Source: Planktomarina sp. (GTDB lineage: Bacteria > Pseudomonadota > Alphaproteobacteria > Rhodobacterales > Rhodobacteraceae). Taken from it: a DNA stretch of 37,097 nt. The DNA lies in NCBI GenBank assembly GCA_020630015.1, contig JAHDCF010000028.1, positions 1 to 37,097 of the forward strand, written 5' to 3'. Positions 3,004 to 11,817 of this stretch are shown here, piece by piece (positions within the stretch are counted from its first letter, which is position 1; each line of letters opens with the position of its first letter). The notes below the pieces were generated by a model. It had not been told where the DNA came from. It did not search any database and was given only the letters and a program-made list of their open reading frames with translations. Position numbers and translations under genes: made by a program.

Positions 3004-3071
3004 ATCGCCCCCAAATTTCTGCCCGAACAGACATAAGCCCTCGTATGTTACATGCAAAGGCCCTTGGGGAA

Positions 3072-3089
3072 GGGAAAGCATGCTTTCCC
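3072..3089. promoter_or_regulatory. Perfect 18-base palindrome between ycjX and truA
   Basis: The sequence GGGAAAGCATGCTTTCCC is a perfect inverted repeat lying 41 bases before truA and 69 bases before ycjX, which diverge. As RNA it could form a 7-bp stem with a CATG loop. No T-tract follows, so it is not a simple terminator. It may be an operator or an RNA leader hairpin for truA. No regulator is assigned. Confidence 0.35.
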
Positions 3090-3129
3090 CGCATGGACAG
3101 TTTGCCAGCGCCGCGATACCAAGTCTCTC

Positions 3130-3900
3130 ATGCCCAGATATGCCTTAAAAATCGAATATACCGGTGCCGGTTTTGCCGGTTGGCAACGCCAGACGGACCT
3201 TGCCACCGTTCAAGGTACGGTTGAAATGGCATTGGCAAAATTGGAAGAAAACGTACCTTCCATTGCCGCGGCGGGAAGAACAGATGCCGGTGTTCATGCT
3301 TTGGGCCAAGTCGCCCATTGCGATATGGCCAAAGATTGGCAACCAGAACGGCTGATGGGGGCGTTGAATTTTCATCTAAAAGAATATTCGGTATCAGTCG
3401 TGGATTGTTGTCACGTAGATGATGACTGGCATGCGCGTTTTTCGGCCGTCGGGCGCACTTATGTATTCCGATTGGTGGCGCGCCGTGCACCTTTGACACA
3501 CGACGCCGGGCTTGCCTGGCATATTCGCCATTCCCTTGATGTTAAAGCGATGCAAGAAGGTGCAAAATACCTGATTGGCCATCACGATTTCACAACCTTT
3601 AGGTCAGTCATGTGTCAGGCAAAAAGTCCGATAAAATCATTGGATCATTTGCAAATAACCCAGCATCCTTATCCCCAAGGCACTGAATTCAGATTTCATT
3701 TGGCAGCACGCAGTTTTTTGCACAATCAAGTTCGCAGCTTTGTGGGAACTTTGGAACGGGTTGGATCAGGAAGCTGGTCACCATTCCGTGTAAAGGAAGC
3801 ATTGGACGCCAAAGATAGATCCGCTTGCGGGCCTGTTTGCCCGCCGCATGGATTGTATCTTGAAACGGCGAAATACAGCCCCGACCCTTTCAAAGGTTAG
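3130..3900 (+). CDS. truA: tRNA pseudouridine(38-40) synthase TruA
   Basis: 256-residue cytoplasmic enzyme isomerising uridines 38-40 in the tRNA anticodon stem. It starts [20 protein letters not shown], typical of TruA. The catalytic motif [15 protein letters not shown] puts the nucleophilic Asp at residue 52. The later segments HDFTTFRS and [13 protein letters not shown] match the family core. The ATG at 3130 is chosen because homology begins there, although the frame is open upstream to 3052. The 3' end overlaps the convergent DUF3726 gene by 4 bases (3897-3900), so the two transcripts must overlap at their ends. Confidence 0.96.
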
Positions 3901-4412
3901 TCATTGTCCGTAAGGCCTGCGCCCGCGCCGCCAAGACGACTTTCCTCAGTTTCCGGTACATATGTTTTCGCCGCCCATGCGTTCAAAGCATCCCAATGGG
4001 CATCCGAAATCGTGCCACGGGCACCCAGCATCGATGGGTGATCACCGCAGGTCAGCACAATGCCATCCAAGGCTTCATCACATCCTGCACCGAAAAATTG
4101 CGCCATTGCTTGCAACAATGGCCCATTCTTAACCCCACGCAAAGACACCTTTGGAACACCGCTTTTTAGCGCATCAAAGACAGATGGCCCATCACGAAGC
4201 AAAACAAAATTCGAAAACACCAATGGATCAAACGCCAGCTGTGCGACCCCTGAACAATCTTCACGGCAGGCTGTTAGAAAATCTTCAATCACTTCGGGGG
4301 ATGGGTTCGCGGCAATCACCTTCGCAACCACCTGTGCCTGACCGATTGGAACATTGGCACCACGGGCGGCTTTTAACACCATCATTTCTGTTTCATTTAC
4401 CGATCTGGTCAT
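3897..4412 (-). CDS. DUF3726 family protein of unknown function
   Basis: 171 residues, no signal peptide and no membrane segment, so probably cytoplasmic. I recognise the N-terminal pattern [22 protein letters not shown] and the C-terminal end [21 protein letters not shown] as DUF3726-like. The middle ([29 protein letters not shown]) has no catalytic signature I can name. It is the last gene of the five-gene operon; its ATG overlaps the stop of the 550-residue gene by 4 bases (4409-4412), implying translational coupling and probably a shared task. It also overlaps truA tail to tail by 4 bases. The family name is from memory; function unknown. Confidence 0.8.
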
Positions 4413-6061
4413 GACGCGAAAACCGGCATCCAGAAATCATCGTTTGCCGTTCCATCTGCCAACTCAGATGCCAATGGCGCACCCGACATCAAGGTAATCC
4501 GCGTCCAAAGCTTTGATTTCGGATCGAACTTACCGGCGCCAAAAAATGATAATTTACACCGCAACATATCGATGGGTGCTGTATCGGCATCAATAAGATT
4601 ATCCCGGATTTCAGAATATGGATTTCTGGACAAAGCCTGCATTCTGCAAACCGCGAATCTGTGGTGCGGATTGCGTGTCAAAAATTTCCAAATTGGGCCG
4701 GTTTGACCATCCAAATCATCAGACAACGCTCTAACCCGGCGGGCGATATCAAGGGGGCTTTCTTGATCGGCGCCGGGTTCTTCGTGGCGCTGGCCGATGC
4801 GCGGTTCCAATTTGGCCTCTGAAACATACCAGAACTGCGCGGTTGTTTTGAGATCGGAAAAATCAAGATCAGCGATTTCAGGCCAATGATTTTCGATGAT
4901 CGCTTGCACATCCGCGCAATCCATTTGGCCGTCTAATTCAGGTTCGAACGGATTGGCCATACATTCAGTAATCGGATCCACCAAATCACCGAATGGTTCC
5001 AACATCCAGGCTATCGCCAATTCCTCTAACTCTGGTGAAATTTTTGCCGCCTTATCCTGCAAATTGGCTAAAGCATCAGGGTGCATTAACGCATCGACAT
5101 CAAGGTCATCTGTCAATTCCGCCCAACCGGATCGCGTGGCTTCGATCGCGGCTTGGGCTTCTGGATCGGGCACATTCCATTCGATTAAATGCGCCGACAC
5201 GCGTGCAATCAATTCAACCAATTTATTGGCTTGGTCGGTTTGAACCTTGGTCGATAAAACTTGTGCCAGTGCTGTTTCACGACTGGCCATCCAAGAATGC
5301 AATAACAACGGATGAGATACCAAAAACGGAGCCATCCCCAACCCTGTTGAGTTTCCAATTCCAAGGAATTTTTTGATAGCTATGGGAAGGTCTGCCCCAC
5401 CGACATGCTCTATCAAGCGGTGCGTAAAATGCCGGATAAGCCAGACCGTCAGCATTTCGGCCATAAAAGGCCCGCTGAGGCCGGGGCGATTTTCGATATC
5501 GCGACGATCGGCGATCCCAAATTTTCCATTTCCATAAACGGCTGTGGTCCGCATTAAATATCCGGTGCGCACGATGTCATCGATCGGCAGATCCGTCCCA
5601 TCGCGCAAGGCCGTGACGATCGTGTCAAAAAGACGCACAGATTTATTTGCCCGCGATATACACAAATCTTTCTGAGAGTATCGCCCACCCTCTTGTCGCG
5701 GCGCATTTTCGGCAAGTCGCGCCCGTTCACCAGCATCAGGAATGCCATCGTACAAGACAAATGCAGCATCCCAGCGATCTGCAATAACCCGATCAGTGCG
5801 AAATTCCGGATCAATGGGTTGGGTGATCGCAAACAAGGAATAAGGTTGCCCCCCAAGTTCAATGGTGAAAACGGTCTGTCCGTATCCGTCTTCATCCATA
5901 TTCCAAAACGTTTCAGAAACGGTACTTTTTTCAGCAATCAAATTGCGCAGCAATGTGCGAAGAAATGACATACGTGTCGGATACATGACGCCCATTTGCG
6001 ACAGTCGCATCACCCTATTGGGATCGCGCAATCCATTTGGAAGATGGCAAAGATCTTTCAT
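4409..6061 (-). CDS. Conserved-looking 550-residue protein of unknown function
   Basis: I do not recognise a characterised family. The protein has no signal peptide and no clear membrane segment. Distinctive features are the N-terminus LPNGLRDPNRVMRLSQMGVMYPTRMSFLRTLLR, a central GIGNSTGLGMAPFLVSHPLLLHSWM near residues 235-260, an acidic Ala/Leu-rich region at ~310-400, and a C-terminal MLRCKLSFFGAGKFDPKSKLW near 510-530. These sharp Gly/Pro/aromatic motifs look like conserved positions of an enzyme or binding protein rather than a scaffold. It overlaps by 4 bases both the M19 gene upstream (6058-6061) and the DUF3726 gene downstream (4409-4412), so the three products are probably made in step. 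Real coding is certain; role unknown. Confidence 0.88.
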   Translation of the reverse strand: MKDLCHLPNGLRDPNRVMRLSQMGVMYPTRMSFLRTLLRNLIAEKSTVSETFWNMDEDGYGQTVFTIELGGQPYSLFAITQPIDPEFRTDRVIADRWDAAFVLYDGIPDAGERARLAENAPRQEGGRYSQKDLCISRANKSVRLFDTIVTALRDGTDLPIDDIVRTGYLMRTTAVYGNGKFGIADRRDIENRPGLSGPFMAEMLTVWLIRHFTHRLIEHVGGADLPIAIKKFLGIGNSTGLGMAPFLVSHPLLLHSWMASRETALAQVLSTKVQTDQANKLVELIARVSAHLIEWNVPDPEAQAAIEATRSGWAELTDDLDVDALMHPDALANLQDKAAKISPELEELAIAWMLEPFGDLVDPITECMANPFEPELDGQMDCADVQAIIENHWPEIADLDFSDLKTTAQFWYVSEAKLEPRIGQRHEEPGADQESPLDIARRVRALSDDLDGQTGPIWKFLTRNPHHRFAVCRMQALSRNPYSEIRDNLIDADTAPIDMLRCKLSFFGAGKFDPKSKLWTRITLMSGAPLASELADGTANDDFWMPVFAS

Positions 6062-7050
6062 GAGCTTTCCTTCCCATCCGGTTTGAAAGCAGCTTCAATA
6101 AAACGCATCCAATTTTTTCCCATGATGCCATCCACATCCTCTGATGAAATGCCATTCTTGACCAAAGATTTTGCGATATCGGGATAATCCCTGTTGTCTT
6201 TGAACCATTTGGGTTGATCCGGAAAGGCAACTGCAGGCACCGGAACTTTGCGCCAATGCCCATTGCGCATCCAATTTACAACACTGTCAGGTTGGCCCTG
6301 ACACAAATCTGACCCAAACCCGAACATGTCTGCACCATGGTCGGCGATCAATTCCATAACCATTTGGGAAAACTGTTCCATACTGCAATCTGACCCGTCA
6401 GCCAAATGATGGGGGTAAAGTGAAAAACCCATCATTCCGCCGCTTTGTGCCAACGCTTTTATCAATTCAGGCTGAAGGTTGCGCGGCGCAGCATGCCATT
6501 GATACGGGTTGGCATGTGTCACGGTTACCGGACGATGGCTGTGCGCGATCACATCCATGGCCGTGTGATGGCCAGCATGGGACAGATCAACCACCATTCC
6601 AACGCGATTCATTTCTGAAACCGCTTCTCGGCCGAATGCGGTTAACCCGCTGTCGACAGGTTCGAAACATCCCGCGCCTAACAAAGATTGTTGATTATAA
6701 GTGATTTGGCAAAATCGAATGCCCAATTGATGCAAGATTTCGATCCGGCCAAGATCAGCACCAATCGCCAATGGGTTTTGTAACCCAAACATGATTGCCG
6801 TCTTATTTTTTGCCTTGGCGTCCAGAATATCCTGCGCTGTGGTGGCACGGTGAATCAGGTCTGGAAAGCGTTCGAACCACGCATTCCAATCCTGCAAGTT
6901 TTGCACAACACCAAGAAAATCTTCGTGGTAACCAACGGTCATGTGCACGGCATCAACCGAACCTTCACGCATTTGACGAAAGACGGTTTCCGACGGGGCC
7001 ACATATTGCAAACAATCAATGATCATAACCGCAGTGATCACAGCGGCCAT
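6058..7050 (-). CDS. Peptidase M19 (renal/membrane dipeptidase) homologue with a degenerate metal site
   Basis: 330 residues with an M19 TIM-barrel pattern. Residues aligning with active dipeptidases: the N-terminal HxD metal motif is replaced by IDCLQY (residues 11-16); the bridging Glu is Gln91 (FGLQNPLA); His158 (VVDLSHAGHH), His179 (TVTHANPY), Arg190 (APRN) and Asp248 (FGSDLCQG) are kept. Site 1 of the di-zinc centre therefore looks lost, so a different reaction or a mononuclear enzyme is likely. From memory, a Pseudomonas M19 homologue near the dimethylglycine demethylase genes (PA5396) has similar changes, which would make this a distinct subfamily. It follows the LysR gene by 14 bases and overlaps the next gene by 4. 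The ATG at 7050 is used; a second ATG lies 8 codons in. Confidence 0.85.
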   Translation of the reverse strand: MAAVITAVMIIDCLQYVAPSETVFRQMREGSVDAVHMTVGYHEDFLGVVQNLQDWNAWFERFPDLIHRATTAQDILDAKAKNKTAIMFGLQNPLAIGADLGRIEILHQLGIRFCQITYNQQSLLGAGCFEPVDSGLTAFGREAVSEMNRVGMVVDLSHAGHHTAMDVIAHSHRPVTVTHANPYQWHAAPRNLQPELIKALAQSGGMMGFSLYPHHLADGSDCSMEQFSQMVMELIADHGADMFGFGSDLCQGQPDSVVNWMRNGHWRKVPVPAVAFPDQPKWFKDNRDYPDIAKSLVKNGISSEDVDGIMGKNWMRFIEAAFKPDGKESS

Positions 7051-7064
7051 GGGAATTGCAAGTC

Positions 7065-8060
7065 TTAGGCGGCTGGTTTTACGCTAACGTTGGAAAAAAC
7101 TTGATCAACGATGTCGGCAAAGGCATGGGCCAATTCTGAATTTTCGCTGTCTTTTCGCACGCCCAAGAAACACGCGCGATTACGCCACAACCGCCGCTTA
7201 CTGGCCAATTGCAGTGTCCCTGAATCCAAATCAGCACGGAAAAGTGGGGCCATACCCACACCCACGCCACGACCAGCCTTCAACGCTTTCAAATAGGATT
7301 CAAAACTTGGATAAGGTTCCTTAGAAATCCCGGGGATGGGCAGATCGGGATCCCGTCCCAAAAATGCCATCCAATCCCCACCGTGATCGGGATTTTTCAT
7401 CGTTAACAAAGGTTCATTTTCAAACCCAGCCACATCAAGCCCGGATTGCGGAATTGGATAATGGGGCGCGCAAACAGCGATGACCTCTTCGCCAAAAAGG
7501 GTCTTTGAATTGTAACCTGGTTTTGGCCTTTTCCCGAGGTGACAGCTTACATCCGGCGCACGATCCAATCCGGCATCCCCAACGAAATTGAAACCGCACC
7601 CAAGACCGCGCAATTTTGATAGATGGGGACGCAAAACTGATGCAATTCCCCAGACAGAAAACTCAATATTTAATGTGGGGCGATCAGATTTCGCCAATGG
7701 TGTGCGCCCACTTTTTTCCAGCGATGAAACTGAAGTCAAAGCTTGCGTCTGCAAGTCATTTGAAGCGGAAGATGCGTTTTTATAAAGCGCGTCACCAGCA
7801 GACGTTAACACCACACGCCCATGGGTTTGAGAAATCAAAGGCACCCCCACCAACCCTTCCAAACGCGAAATTTGTTTTGCAACCAAAGTATACGGCACAT
7901 TCATTTCGGTCGCGGCTTTTGTTATTGAACTTTGATCAACAACCTGGACAAAATTTACCAACAAATGCGCCGGCAATATTTGTTTTTTGTGCGATGCAGT
8001 GGCTTCCACGTTTCGCACATTCGTTGCAAGACTTGGTTTCAAGTTCTTTAAATCAGACAC
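7065..8060 (-). CDS. LysR-type transcriptional regulator
   Basis: 331 residues. A winged helix-turn-helix lies at about residues 30-90 (FVQVVDQSSITKAATEMNVPYTLVAKQISRLEGLVGVPL), followed by a linker and an effector-binding domain (VIAVCAPHYPIP, LLTMKNPDHGGDWMAFLG, FESYLKALKAGRGVGVGMAPLF). About 25-30 residues before the HTH are an unusual extension. The start is GTG at 8058-8060 with AAGGGGGCG close upstream, a convincing ribosome site. Unlike many LysR genes it is not divergent from its likely targets but sits inside the operon, 21 bases after the lead gene and 14 before the M19 gene, so it may autoregulate the whole unit. Effector unknown. Confidence 0.9.
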   Translation of the reverse strand: MSDLKNLKPSLATNVRNVEATASHKKQILPAHLLVNFVQVVDQSSITKAATEMNVPYTLVAKQISRLEGLVGVPLISQTHGRVVLTSAGDALYKNASSASNDLQTQALTSVSSLEKSGRTPLAKSDRPTLNIEFSVWGIASVLRPHLSKLRGLGCGFNFVGDAGLDRAPDVSCHLGKRPKPGYNSKTLFGEEVIAVCAPHYPIPQSGLDVAGFENEPLLTMKNPDHGGDWMAFLGRDPDLPIPGISKEPYPSFESYLKALKAGRGVGVGMAPLFRADLDSGTLQLASKRRLWRNRACFLGVRKDSENSELAHAFADIVDQVFSNVSVKPAA

Positions 8061-8081
8061 GCAACGCCCCCTTTTTCAACT

Positions 8082-8636
8082 TCACGCCGTCAAATAAGCC
8101 ACATCACCTCGTGCGCGCAGACGTTGGCCATAGGCCAGTAAGAATTCATCCACGCGATCTGCTGTCAGGGAAATCGCCTGCATGGCTGGCCCCTGATTTC
8201 CGTCGCTTAATGCATGCAGATATGCACTGAGATTGGTTAACGGTAAGAAAACGTCAGACAAAGAATCTGAATTTGAATCTGGGTGGGATGGTTCAAAAAC
8301 AGCAAGGGCGCCGCCAGCCGTCACCCTAAACTTCACGATGCATTTGCTTTTATCGATACGCTGAAGATGAAAGTCTTCCAAAATGAGGGGGCCAAATTTT
8401 TTCATCATTTGCCGGCGAAAAGGTTTGTTCCCGGCTGCATTAATAAATGCCGACACCAGCCCGCACACAAAATGAGCCAATCCAGAACGCAGTTGCATGA
8501 TGGCGGATTGTTGTGAGGGAAAATCTGATTGAAGATTGATCCCGTTACCTCGCAAACTCAAACTTCGCACAGCCAATCCACTTGCGCGCAATTCGACTTG
8601 GAATGTGGCCCATATTGTACCTGTTATGCCGCCCAT
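8082..8636 (-). CDS. Hypothetical protein, lead gene of the M19/DUF3726 operon
   Basis: 184 residues that I cannot assign to a family. The start ATG at 8634-8636 has GGAGA with an 8-base gap, a good ribosome site, which supports real coding. The sequence is a mixed alpha/beta-looking soluble protein with a basic stretch NKPFRRQMMKKFGPLILEDFHLQRIDKSKCIVKFRV (about residues 68-103) and no signal peptide. The frame is open without strong bias conflicts on the other strand. It is 21 bases upstream of the LysR gene and is preceded by a TTAA-N7-TTAA element at 8687-8701. Function unknown. Confidence 0.65.
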   Translation of the reverse strand: MGGITGTIWATFQVELRASGLAVRSLSLRGNGINLQSDFPSQQSAIMQLRSGLAHFVCGLVSAFINAAGNKPFRRQMMKKFGPLILEDFHLQRIDKSKCIVKFRVTAGGALAVFEPSHPDSNSDSLSDVFLPLTNLSAYLHALSDGNQGPAMQAISLTADRVDEFLLAYGQRLRARGDVAYLTA

Positions 8637-8686
8637 AACTATATCTCCGATTTTTATCGTTCTTTCTTCGACATGATCGGCGTCAG

Positions 8687-8701
8687 TTAACCAGAGATTA
8701 A
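8687..8701. promoter_or_regulatory. Candidate CtrA-binding site (TTAA-N7-TTAA)
   Basis: TTAACCAGAGATTAA matches the alphaproteobacterial CtrA consensus TTAA-N7-TTAA exactly. It begins 51 bases upstream of the lead gene of the 8636-3897 operon, in the region shared with the divergent NCS2 permease. A further isolated TTAAC half-site lies near 8725. About one such match is expected by chance in 70 kb of 50% G+C DNA, so position is the main argument. Confidence 0.4.
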
Positions 8702-8811
8702 TTCACGGACAAAAATGGGCAAAATTAACGCTTGAACCCAAAAAAAGTTACAATTCTTACAAAAAATACTCGCTTTGTGAAATTGTTTGAGGCAGCAAAT
8801 CGGACAGCATG

Positions 8812-8842
8812 TTGACGTTGGGACAGCGTCATCCGCTATATT
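8812..8842 (+). promoter_or_regulatory. Candidate sigma-70 promoter of the NCS2 permease gene
   Basis: TTGACG at 8812-8817 and TATATT at 8837-8842 resemble -35 and -10 boxes. The 19-base spacer is longer than ideal. Transcription from about 8849 would give a leader of some 84 bases that begins just before the first stem of the structured leader. Unverified. Confidence 0.4.
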
Positions 8843-8854
8843 CTGTGACGCAGA

Positions 8855-8932
8855 GCCCGGCTGTGCCACAGCAAGATAAAAAATTCGGGCACATAAACGG
8901 GGATGGACCCCTAAGAATGAAGGGATAAAATT
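8855..8932 (+). promoter_or_regulatory. Structured 5' leader with two mutually exclusive hairpins before the permease
   Basis: GCCCG (8855-8859) can pair with CGGGC (8886-8890), enclosing a small hairpin formed by the inverted repeat GCTGTGCCACAGC (8860-8872). Next, GGGG (8899-8902) can pair with CCCC (8908-8911) around ATGGA. The same CCC plus the following T (8909-8912) can instead pair with AGGG (8921-8924), the probable Shine-Dalgarno of the TTG start at 8933. The two pairings exclude each other, the layout of a translational riboswitch or thermosensor. A purine-type ligand would fit the downstream transporter. I could not match it to a known class with certainty. Confidence 0.4.
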
Positions 8933-10243
8933 TTGGCTTCTGTTGATTATGGAAACCCAAACGCCACGCCGCCAATTGCGCAGGCCGTGCCTTTGGGATT
9001 GCAGCACGTTTTGGCGATGTTTGCGTCAAACGTTACGCCATCAATTATTGTGGCCGGTGCCGCCGGTCTTGCATTTGGTGGACCTGAACAAATCTATCTG
9101 ATTCAAATGGCAATGCTCTTTGCGGGTGTTGCAACACTGTTTCAGACTGTTGGCATCGGCCCAATCGGGGCAAAATTGCCAATCATGCAAGGCACAAGCT
9201 TTGCATTTGTGGGCGTCTTGGCGGGTGTCGCTGCAACCCAAGGTCTGGGTGTGGCATTGTCGGCCTGTATCGTGGCGGGTGTGATCCACTTCCTGCTGGG
9301 TGGTGTGATCAAGCACCTGCGCTTTATGTTCCCACCACTGGTTACCGGTTTGGTGATCTTGGCCATCGGTCTTTATCTGATCCCAGTTGCGATCAAATAT
9401 GCCGCTGGTGGTGCCGCGAAGTTCCAGATGGAAGCTGAAAGCTTTGGCTCATTGATGCACTGGTCTGTCGCATTGACCGTTGTCGTGGTTGCACTGCTTT
9501 GTAAGTTCCTAACAAAAGGCTTGATTTCAAATGCAGCGATTTTGATTGGTCTTCTGGCAGGATACATTGTTGCCTTTGCGTTCGGAATGGTGAACTTCGG
9601 TGCAGTTGGCAAAGCAGCATGGGTGAACATTCCAAAAGTTCTGCCCTATGGATTTGAATTCAGCTTGGGTGCCGTCATTGGTGTGACGCTCGTCTCAATC
9701 GTGTCTGCGATTGAAACCGTGGGCGATACATCAGGAACAACCAAAGCAGGCGCGGGCCGCGATGCGACCGACGAAGAAATCGCTGGTGCAACATATGCTG
9801 ACGGTTTGGGCACGGCGGTTGCTGGTGTATTTGGCGGCTTGCCGAACACATCATTCAGCCAAAACGTTGGTATTGTCGGCATGACCGGCATTATGTCGCG
9901 TCACGTTGTAACTATCGGCGGTATTATTCTGATCATCTGCGGTTTGATGCCAAAGATCGGCGCTGTTATCGCATCCATGCCGTTACCCGTGCTGGGTGGT
10001 GGTGTGATCGTGATGTTCGGCATGGTGGCCGCGGCAGGTATGAACATGCTGTCTGACGTGACAATGTCGCGCCGCAACATGATCATCATCTCCGTCTCGC
10101 TTGCCGTTGGTCTGGGTTTGAATTTGGTGCCATCTGCGGTGCAGTATTTGCCAGGGATCTGGAAAACACTTGCGACATCTGCAGTTGCGCCAACCGCTTT
10201 GCTGGCGGTGGTTCTGAACTTGGTGTTGCCACACGACGAATAA
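8933..10243 (+). CDS. NCS2 family nucleobase permease (xanthine/uracil type)
   Basis: 436-residue polytopic inner-membrane proton symporter for a nucleobase. About a dozen hydrophobic segments are visible. Family landmarks: LGLQHVLAMFASNVTP with the conserved His in TM1, MQGTSFAFVG in TM3, IETVGDTSGTTKAG with the substrate-binding Glu of TM8, and the signature NTSFSQNVGIVGMTG of TM10. The QNxG form is that of xanthine/uric-acid transporters rather than the uracil UraA form, so xanthine or urate is the better guess. The start is TTG at 8933 with AAGGG 8-9 bases upstream; no better ATG precedes the TM1 homology. It is monocistronic, with a structured leader before it and a terminator after it. 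Confidence 0.92.
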   Translation: MASVDYGNPNATPPIAQAVPLGLQHVLAMFASNVTPSIIVAGAAGLAFGGPEQIYLIQMAMLFAGVATLFQTVGIGPIGAKLPIMQGTSFAFVGVLAGVAATQGLGVALSACIVAGVIHFLLGGVIKHLRFMFPPLVTGLVILAIGLYLIPVAIKYAAGGAAKFQMEAESFGSLMHWSVALTVVVVALLCKFLTKGLISNAAILIGLLAGYIVAFAFGMVNFGAVGKAAWVNIPKVLPYGFEFSLGAVIGVTLVSIVSAIETVGDTSGTTKAGAGRDATDEEIAGATYADGLGTAVAGVFGGLPNTSFSQNVGIVGMTGIMSRHVVTIGGIILIICGLMPKIGAVIASMPLPVLGGGVIVMFGMVAAAGMNMLSDVTMSRRNMIIISVSLAVGLGLNLVPSAVQYLPGIWKTLATSAVAPTALLAVVLNLVLPHDE

Positions 10244-10314: not shown

Positions 10315-11817
10315 TCAGATCTTTGGAAATCTGAAACGTTCAGCAACCTCGGTCCAATCACTTTTGTTGCGCACATATTGCTGGCTGGCATCTGATGGCG
10401 GATTATAGTCCCAATCTTCTGATGCCCCTGCCTGCATCGCGGCATTCAACGCAAAACGTGTTTGCTGATTTCTTATGATCTTGTCGGTCAATTCGGCACT
10501 GTCCCAACGCTGTTCCACTTCGCGCGCAAAGCCTTCGGCGATGGGGGCATAGGCGGGGTTCTCTGCAAGGTTGGTGCGTTCCCACGGATCATTGGCAATG
10601 TCATACAGCTGCGGTTCATCCATATCACAGTGGATATACTTCATATCGCCCCGTCGGATCATAAATACCGGCGCGCCTGTCATTTCGGCGCAATATTCGC
10701 CAATGGCCTCTGACACGCCATCATCTTGACCACTGGCCAATGTCATCAAAGATCTTCCCGCGACAGGTTCGCCAAACATGGTTTCATCGCCCCCGCCAAT
10801 GTCTACCATTGTCGGTAAAAGATCGACGAGGGAGCATGCGTTTGTGGTGTGCCCCTTCGCAACACCAGGACCGGCCATAATCAACGGCACCCGGGCAGAG
10901 TGCTCAAACATTGTCATCTTATACCAAAGGCCCTTTTCACCCAACATATCGCCGTGATCAGCCGTGACGATGATGATGGTATTGTCCAGCTGACCCATCT
11001 CCTCCACGGTTTTGACTAAGGCGCCAACCTTACTGTCGAAATAGCTGACATTCGCATAATACGCGCGGCGTGCTGCACGAACCTCTTCCTCTGTCAGGGG
11101 TTTATCGTAAGCCTCAATCGCTTTGAGAACACGTTTCCCATGGCCATCTGAGGCATAGGTCGGATCATCCGGCATATCGATTTCATCGTCCGAATATAAA
11201 TCCCACCATTCAGGGCGCGCGACATAGGGATCATGCGGGTGAATGAAGGACGCCACCATGCACCACGGCTTGGTGTCATCCCGGCCATAGTCAAACAACC
11301 TGCGGCGGGCGGCGAATTCCACCTCGTCGTCGTAATCAATTTGATAAGTGGCCATGGCAACGCCACTTTCTTTGACGACATCCATATTGTGATACCACTT
11401 ATCAATTCTTTGATCGTGGTTTTTCCAATCGGGGGTCCAGGCAAAATCGGACGGATATATATCTGTTGTAATGCGTTCTTCGAAACCATGCATTTGATCA
11501 GGCCCAACAAAATGCATCTTGCCGGACAAACAGGTCGAATACTTCAACGATTTCAAATAATGCGCAAAGGTGGGAATGGACGCAGGAAATTCACTGGCGT
11601 TATCATAAGCACCAATTTTTGTGACGTGTTGCCCAGACATGAACGAAAACCGCGATGGGGCACAAAGCGGACTATTGCAATAAGCCGCATCAAACCGCAT
11701 GCCACGTTCCGCCAATGCATCCATATGGGGTGTCTTCACAACGGGATGGCCATAGGTGCCTGTGAAATGCGGCGCAAGTTGATCGGCCATGATCAACAGG
11801 ATGTTAGGTTTTGTCAT
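10315..11817 (-). CDS. betC: Choline-sulfatase
   Basis: 500-residue sulfatase hydrolysing choline-O-sulfate to choline and sulfate, feeding glycine betaine synthesis. The sulfatase motif CAPSR is at residues 52-56, where Cys52 becomes formylglycine. NILLIMADQLAPHFTGTYGH carries the N-terminal metal-binding Asp. VTADHGDMLGEKGLWYKMTMFEHSARVPL is typical of choline sulfatases, as are GKMHFVGPDQMHGFEERITTDIYPSDF and the usual length of ~500. No signal peptide is visible, as expected for the cytoplasmic enzyme. Its usual partners (betI, betA, betB, choX) are not in the window. The start ATG at 11815-11817 has GGGGACC upstream. Confidence 0.92.
   Translation of the reverse strand: MTKPNILLIMADQLAPHFTGTYGHPVVKTPHMDALAERGMRFDAAYCNSPLCAPSRFSFMSGQHVTKIGAYDNASEFPASIPTFAHYLKSLKYSTCLSGKMHFVGPDQMHGFEERITTDIYPSDFAWTPDWKNHDQRIDKWYHNMDVVKESGVAMATYQIDYDDEVEFAARRRLFDYGRDDTKPWCMVASFIHPHDPYVARPEWWDLYSDDEIDMPDDPTYASDGHGKRVLKAIEAYDKPLTEEEVRAARRAYYANVSYFDSKVGALVKTVEEMGQLDNTIIIVTADHGDMLGEKGLWYKMTMFEHSARVPLIMAGPGVAKGHTTNACSLVDLLPTMVDIGGGDETMFGEPVAGRSLMTLASGQDDGVSEAIGEYCAEMTGAPVFMIRRGDMKYIHCDMDEPQLYDIANDPWERTNLAENPAYAPIAEGFAREVEQRWDSAELTDKIIRNQQTRFALNAAMQAGASEDWDYNPPSDASQQYVRNKSDWTEVAERFRFPKI

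Follow-up and report, generated by a model that had tools for sequence, protein, structure and literature searches.

A conserved, poorly described gene trio beside truA in Planktomarina sp. as candidate core of a catabolic module for N-methylated osmolytes

Among the closest described systems to the locus analysed here is the operon for catabolism of homarine (N-methylpicolinate), which was reportedly published in 2026 (Nat Microbiol) under the name homABCDER and is said to comprise five structural genes and a regulator. Heterotetrameric sarcosine oxidase and N-methylglutamate dehydrogenase (Mgd), the genes of which adjoin some of the operons discussed below, belong to a different family from all five genes considered here. 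The remaining points of comparison are the M19 dipeptidases, in which two later His residues are metal ligands and an Asp is catalytic, and the Ldh_2 family (type II malate/lactate, sulfolactate, ureidoglycolate and delta1-piperideine-2-carboxylate oxidoreductases), the SHG motif of which holds the catalytic His. Here we analyse a stretch of 37,097 nucleotides (nt) from Planktomarina sp. (contig JAHDCF010000028.1 of assembly GCA_020630015.1; the window) that carries, next to truA, genes for an M19-family protein, a 550-residue protein (g550) and a DUF3726-type protein. This trio is a real, conserved and poorly described module, and probably a side branch of the recently published kind of pathway. 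That it is the centrepiece of a module for breaking down an N-methylated osmolyte, with homarine as the best candidate and the window carrying a truA-linked branch, has in our judgement about an even chance of being right.

The initial annotation treated the locus as a single operon of five genes. Five open reading frames do lie in line on the minus strand, with gaps of 21 and 14 nt followed by two 4-nt overlaps, just as it had described, and they are not chance frames, as homologues of the M19, LysR, u184 and DUF3726 proteins stand in place in relatives. The features are as follows:

3052–3900, plus strand: truA, a convergent neighbour that marks the truA-linked branch; context, not part of the module.
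3897–4412, minus strand: DUF3726-type protein, 171 residues, with a helical N-terminal part, a short alpha/beta part and a conserved C-terminal tail; predicted shrunken Ldh_2-like subunit (open reading frame list, homologues, predicted model).
4409–6061, minus strand: g550, 550 residues, without Pfam family or recognised fold; putative partner of the DUF3726 protein (adjacency, fusion in a relative).
6058–7050, minus strand: M19-family protein, 330 residues, with a remodelled active site (Pfam); likely start at the ATG at 7026.
7065–8060, minus strand: LysR-family regulator, 331 residues, GTG start (Pfam, tblastn).
8082–8636, minus strand: u184, a 184-residue protein without known family (tblastn matches in only three of 132 loci, L051, L083 and L084).

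The 3' end of the cluster, formed by the DUF3726 gene, thus overlaps the convergent truA by 4 nt. Since most related M19 proteins start at the residue corresponding to Met9 or close to it, the true M19 start probably lies 24 nt downstream, at 7026, in which case the gap between LysR and M19 would widen to about 38 nt.

Gene order was compared across 132 loci (L031–L162), made up of 40 stretches around genome-search matches, 12 stretches of annotated plasmids and the 80 best-scoring of at least 583 genome-contig matches; these are best matches together with chosen ones, rather than a random sample, and include four near-duplicates, while the shorter stretches L001–L030 stand outside the count. 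By match coordinates, a DUF3726 gene lies directly behind g550 in 127 of the 132 loci (110 adjacent and one fused if open-frame edges are used instead), and on a Mesorhizobium 131-2-1 plasmid the two form one annotated gene. Among the adjacency misses, L117 is a contig end, L155 carries a DUF3726-type frame about 1 kb further on, and L077, L080 and L081 have a divergent frame of about 240 residues in its place. A motif-script count (49 next, one fused and 74 none of 126) was discarded as too strict, having mis-scored known cases. An M19 gene precedes g550 within 200 nt in 88 of the 132 loci and within 3 kb in 10 more, with a contig end in one. The tabulation of co-occurrence proposed in the initial annotation is thus in line with its view that M19, g550 and DUF3726 belong together, in an order that is widely conserved. 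The same check of gene order tells against the other two genes. In a comparison of the window with its four nearest loci (L051, L083, L084 and L117), a tblastn counterpart of the LysR gene above 80 bits was found in L084 only (two of five, window included), so the idea of a dedicated LysR regulator is not supported, and u184 has counterparts in L051, L083 and L084 but not in L117 (four of five). Because LysR and u184 are so patchy among the nearest loci, a unit of five genes is rejected, and the real unit, as far as gene order tells, is the M19/g550/DUF3726 trio and, within it, the g550–DUF3726 pair.

The evidence for a catabolic role comes from related loci in which the trio is part of a larger operon. 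In Pararhizobium, Aminobacter, Mesorhizobium, Ruegeria TM1040, two Phaeobacter and Sulfitobacter, the annotated order is LysR, aldehyde dehydrogenase (ALDH), M19, optionally a BCCT transporter, g550, DUF3726 and optionally Ldh, followed by a glycine-betaine-type ABC transporter (Pararhizobium, Aminobacter) or a branched-chain-type one (Mesorhizobium); in the Phaeobacter DSM 17395 and Sulfitobacter stretches no Ldh gene adjoins the operon. Five structural genes (ALDH, M19, g550, DUF3726 and Ldh) and a LysR regulator would fit the homABCDER operon, and the Mgd-type genes linked to some full operons may be a further likeness. The window differs in having only M19, g550 and DUF3726, with a non-conserved LysR, next to truA.

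Clusters annotated as of the sarcosine oxidase type lie beside the operon in Ruegeria TM1040, on a Phaeobacter plasmid, in two Shinella and at two SAR116 loci. The nature of these clusters was addressed with a 12-row tree of alpha subunits, using as references for Mgd L177, beside mgs and glutamate-ligase genes, and L180, beside dimethylamine monooxygenase, and for sarcosine oxidase the glyA-linked L178 and L179. The Shinella pair groups with L177, and Ruegeria and Phaeobacter with L180 and L176, each fork having a support of 100/100 and the fork joining both sets one of 92/96. The neighbours of these four full operons thus fall with Mgd and apart from the glyA-linked sarcosine oxidases, and sarcosine as the neighbouring pathway is disfavoured for Ruegeria, Phaeobacter and Shinella, the SAR116 case being left open. 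The best score of the operon ALDH, though under the cutoff, is to the alpha-ketoglutaric semialdehyde (2,5-dioxovalerate) dehydrogenases, and oxidation of a five-carbon semialdehyde to N-methylglutamate would fit. Mgd is reported to take part in homarine catabolism (PMC13390433, citing a 2026 paper), and homarine is taken up by R. pomeroyi, its mean lifetime being at most 2 h (PMC12817926); the trio genes are not named in the available portions of these two papers or of PMC9723723 and PMC9038784.

The window itself belongs to a separate branch. Its trio adjoins truA, as in many Rhodobacterales, and no transporter, Ldh or ALDH gene lies beside it. A quickly built tree with 65 g550 proteins gathers those linked to truA into one group of 15 rows (14 truA-linked and L048; Shimodaira–Hasegawa-like approximate likelihood ratio test, 99), apart from 20 rows with operon-type ALDH or Ldh, while 31 rows could be given neither label and the tree leaves 23 of its 62 inner branches unresolved. 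The genome from which the window derives (G000) does encode an ALDH 80% identical to that of the operon, on another contig, and soxA-type alpha subunits 63%, 52% and 45% identical to those of Phaeobacter (among loci L181–L188; compared by identity and not placed in the tree), although these Mgd-like genes are not linked to the trio. There are in all three full-length soxA-type alpha subunits in this genome and 12 partial matches to other such frames, and the organism looks like a methylated-amine specialist.

The two proteins of the conserved pair differ in what can be recognised in them. The predicted g550 model is of high confidence (predicted local distance difference test score, pLDDT, 92.4; predicted TM-score 0.92), and Foldseek returned no match for it at E≤0.001 in the PDB or among viral models. 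At the sequence level, a single-sequence search of the PDB gave no match at E≤1 and a profile search had E=1.4 as its best value; neither g550 nor u184 passes the cutoff of any Pfam family, and among 40 relatives of g550 the best single Pfam match (E=7.5e-4) occurs in one. A new fold, on this comparison of a predicted model with PDB and viral structures, is unproven. For the DUF3726 protein, the window sequence scores 18.5 bits against PF12525, under the gathering cutoff of 22.1, whereas relatives reach E=5e-31; 23 of 26 aligned members, the window protein among them, match at E≤1, and it shares with accepted members both the position behind g550 and the C-terminal GAG tail. Across a 59-row set, lengths range from 161 to 248 residues, GAG is present in every tail and GAGAG lies within the last 14 residues of 53.

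Several results, of weak to moderate strength, suggest a resemblance of DUF3726 to the Ldh_2 family. In a Foldseek search with the DUF3726 model (pLDDT 91.6), 18 of the top 20 PDB matches (by title, and representing about eight different proteins) belong to the type II malate/lactate dehydrogenase group, with E-values of 0.007 or worse, TM-scores of at most 0.48 in those rows and none at E≤0.001. The N-terminus aligns with the neighbouring Ldh proteins (hhalign P=5e-5, probability 67%, 58 columns), and the haloarchaeal counterpart at L078 scores E=4.8e-9 against Ldh_2, just below cutoff, its alignment with the DUF3726 profile being weak (probability 10%). A search of the PDB with the DUF3726 profile gave nothing better than E=0.7. 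DUF3726 proteins are about half as long as Ldh_2 enzymes and differ also in the SHG motif, which is present in four operon Ldh proteins, is absent from the window DUF3726 protein and reads SHD, out of register, in L075. Taken together, these comparisons suggest that DUF3726, for which our literature search found no paper, is a reduced Ldh_2-type subunit, probably non-catalytic.

The M19 protein matches Pfam Peptidase M19 over residues 18–319 with 241 bits against a cutoff of 26 (E=2e-71), and His158, His179 and Asp248 are invariant in 16 of 16 relatives. Invariant in the same 16 is Gln91, which aligns with the metal-bridging Glu of 3id7. Canonical M19 dipeptidases keep both this Glu and an N-terminal HxD metal motif; the window protein has neither, its sequence reading IDCLQY where HxD was looked for and the profile match beginning at position 33. 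The best solved relative, the amidohydrolase 2i5g (presumably from P. aeruginosa), is homologous over the whole length (E=2e-53), has equivalents of His158, His179 and Asp248, and also departs from the canonical enzymes in lacking HxD and in having Gln, like the window protein, where they have the bridging Glu. Because of Gln91 and an N-terminus without HxD, the window M19 is unlikely, going by its sequence, to work as an ordinary dipeptidase. More distant M19 genes that have no g550 with them (Azospirillum, Salipiger, Paracoccus, Agrobacterium) occur in varied settings that indicate no single substrate. One of them, in Azospirillum (L192; 34% identity), lies beside genes for a flavin adenine dinucleotide (FAD) oxidoreductase and for the ethanolamine ammonia-lyase EutBC.

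A scheme for the full operons can be put forward on these grounds. The substrate would be taken up by the BCCT or ABC transporter, and g550 and DUF3726 would act as one two-subunit enzyme, with the conserved tail of DUF3726 probably entering g550, to attack the ring or the quaternary nitrogen. The remodelled M19 protein might then hydrolyse the resulting amide. In the case of homarine, N-methylglutamate has one carbon fewer than the substrate, to which removal of an N-formyl group would correspond; that M19 acts on such an N-formyl intermediate makes chemical sense but is speculative. The ALDH, to judge by its family, would oxidise the semialdehyde to N-methylglutamate, and Mgd, to judge by linkage and the cited report, would demethylate this to glutamate. 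Our leading guess for the window, presumably a truA-linked branch that kept only the trio and acts on the same substrate as the full operons, is that the chemistry is the same, with ALDH and Mgd supplied from elsewhere in the genome. A bolder and rather doubtful proposal holds that g550 is the founding example of an enzyme fold not seen before and, with a tail-inserting pseudo-dehydrogenase in DUF3726, brings about the opening or reduction of an N-methylated ring or betaine by a route without known parallel, and that the truA-linked branch was recruited to a second substrate, as yet unknown.

Several observations weigh against placing the trio at the heart of N-methylated-osmolyte catabolism. 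A same-strand M19 gene is missing within 3 kb upstream of g550 in 33 of the 132 loci, soxA-type neighbours occur in only five (the flanks being of limited length), and the labels of the Mgd and sarcosine oxidase references derive from gene context, not experiment. The SAR116 alpha subunits lie on the Mgd side of the midpoint root but outside both sets and are ambiguous, and the operon transporters vary among BCCT, betaine-type ABC and branched-chain-type ABC. As for the window, its M19 protein is only 39–53% identical to those of catabolic operons, and neither the best Ldh (38%) nor the best BCCT (33%) of its own genome is a close match. An operon-type ALDH (E≤1e-180) was found anywhere in only 2 of 26 genomes with truA-type g550, picked by g550 identity of at least 51% and not by truA linkage of each, against none of 16 genomes without g550, and the congener G045 is among those without it. 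Hence, the truA branch does not depend on an operon-type ALDH, which is ruled out as its obligate partner, and the substrate of the window branch, which has no adjacent transporter, Ldh or ALDH either, is the less certain for it. The main rival for the window trio is a changed role: possible, if on the unlikely side, is that the truA-linked trio left catabolism for a housekeeping task, such as repairing or clearing a damaged cofactor or a modified amine, and that only its ancestors or cousins are catabolic. This would agree with the distinctness of the truA group and the absence alongside it of any recognised operon-type ALDH, Ldh or transporter, with the lack of this ALDH, at the threshold used, in 24 of the 26 genomes, and with the presence of both branches in some genomes, for instance G294 (L053, L054) and G320 (L055, L056). 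Yet pathway genes are often scattered, and truA-branch M19 proteins are still 60–78% identical to the Phaeobacter operon M19.

The identity of the substrate leaves room for a further alternative, unlikely in our estimate, in which the module degrades not homarine but another quaternary amine, such as proline or hydroxyproline betaine, glycine betaine, carnitine or trigonelline. Neither the transporter types nor the MttB or dimethylglycine-dehydrogenase-like neighbours of the module in L057, L073 and L154 single out homarine; on the other hand, the neighbouring dehydrogenase clusters are of the Mgd type in two separate lineages, which points at N-methylglutamate. An operon for peptide catabolism, with M19 as a true dipeptidase and the other proteins as accessories, would accord with the strong Pfam match, but we consider it highly improbable and set it aside on the M19 metal ligands: the bridging Glu is Gln in all 16 relatives, and the M19 profile leaves the HxD region unmatched. 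No transporter in the annotated related stretches is named as peptide-specific, though several are named only as ABC transporters.

The reading of the trio as a catabolic core for an N-methylated osmolyte would have consequences beyond the locus. Of the 394 genomes sampled from the family, 177 have a g550 match at E≤0.001 (own genome included; two of the matches are weak), and others were found in SAR116, Rhizobiaceae, Acidimicrobiales, gammaproteobacteria and one haloarchaeon, the nearest named relatives being Planktomarina metagenome-assembled genomes; the protein is thus widespread yet has no Pfam family or recognised fold. Should g550 prove to be an enzyme committed to the breakdown of an N-methylated osmolyte that abounds in the sea, its gene would be a direct marker of a marine carbon and nitrogen flux, with the proviso that, given the truA-linked branch, tallies of g550 or DUF3726 on their own would overestimate how common the complete pathway is. 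The greatest reward lies in the structure and chemistry of g550.

The LysR protein has the expected helix-turn-helix domain (Pfam, E=3e-13), and a simple consensus scan of positions 3700–9000 gave four promoter-like sites against a shuffle mean of 5.7, hence no excess. The divergent permease at 8933–10243 matches the xanthine permease model TIGR03173 above cutoff, and a choline-sulfatase gene at 10315–11817 (TIGR03417, above cutoff) is followed by a DsbA-like gene. The initial annotation had taken this choline-sulfatase as a hint of quaternary-amine metabolism. That guess fits the related operons, with their Mgd-type dehydrogenases and their transporters of the BCCT or glycine-betaine ABC type, but the choline-sulfatase is weak evidence for it, because a close copy (78–82%) was seen only in L051, L083 and L084 (flanks of about 9 kb or less). 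The dsb/choline-sulfatase neighbourhood as such recurs in these three loci.

Further versions of the module were also encountered. In a distant one, from Sinorhizobium meliloti pSymB, Aminobacter and Neorhizobium (L077, L080 and L081), a g550 at 25–27% identity is accompanied by M19 and an ABC transporter, with IclR in L080 and RidA in L080 and L081; the tail of the partner of about 240 residues reads SRRHAG, with a later stretch rich in DE/DND, and this version probably serves another substrate. A haloarchaeal Natrinema plasmid (L078) carries ALDH, g550, an Ldh_2-like partner and a BCCT transporter, and this module is likely the result of a cross-domain transfer.

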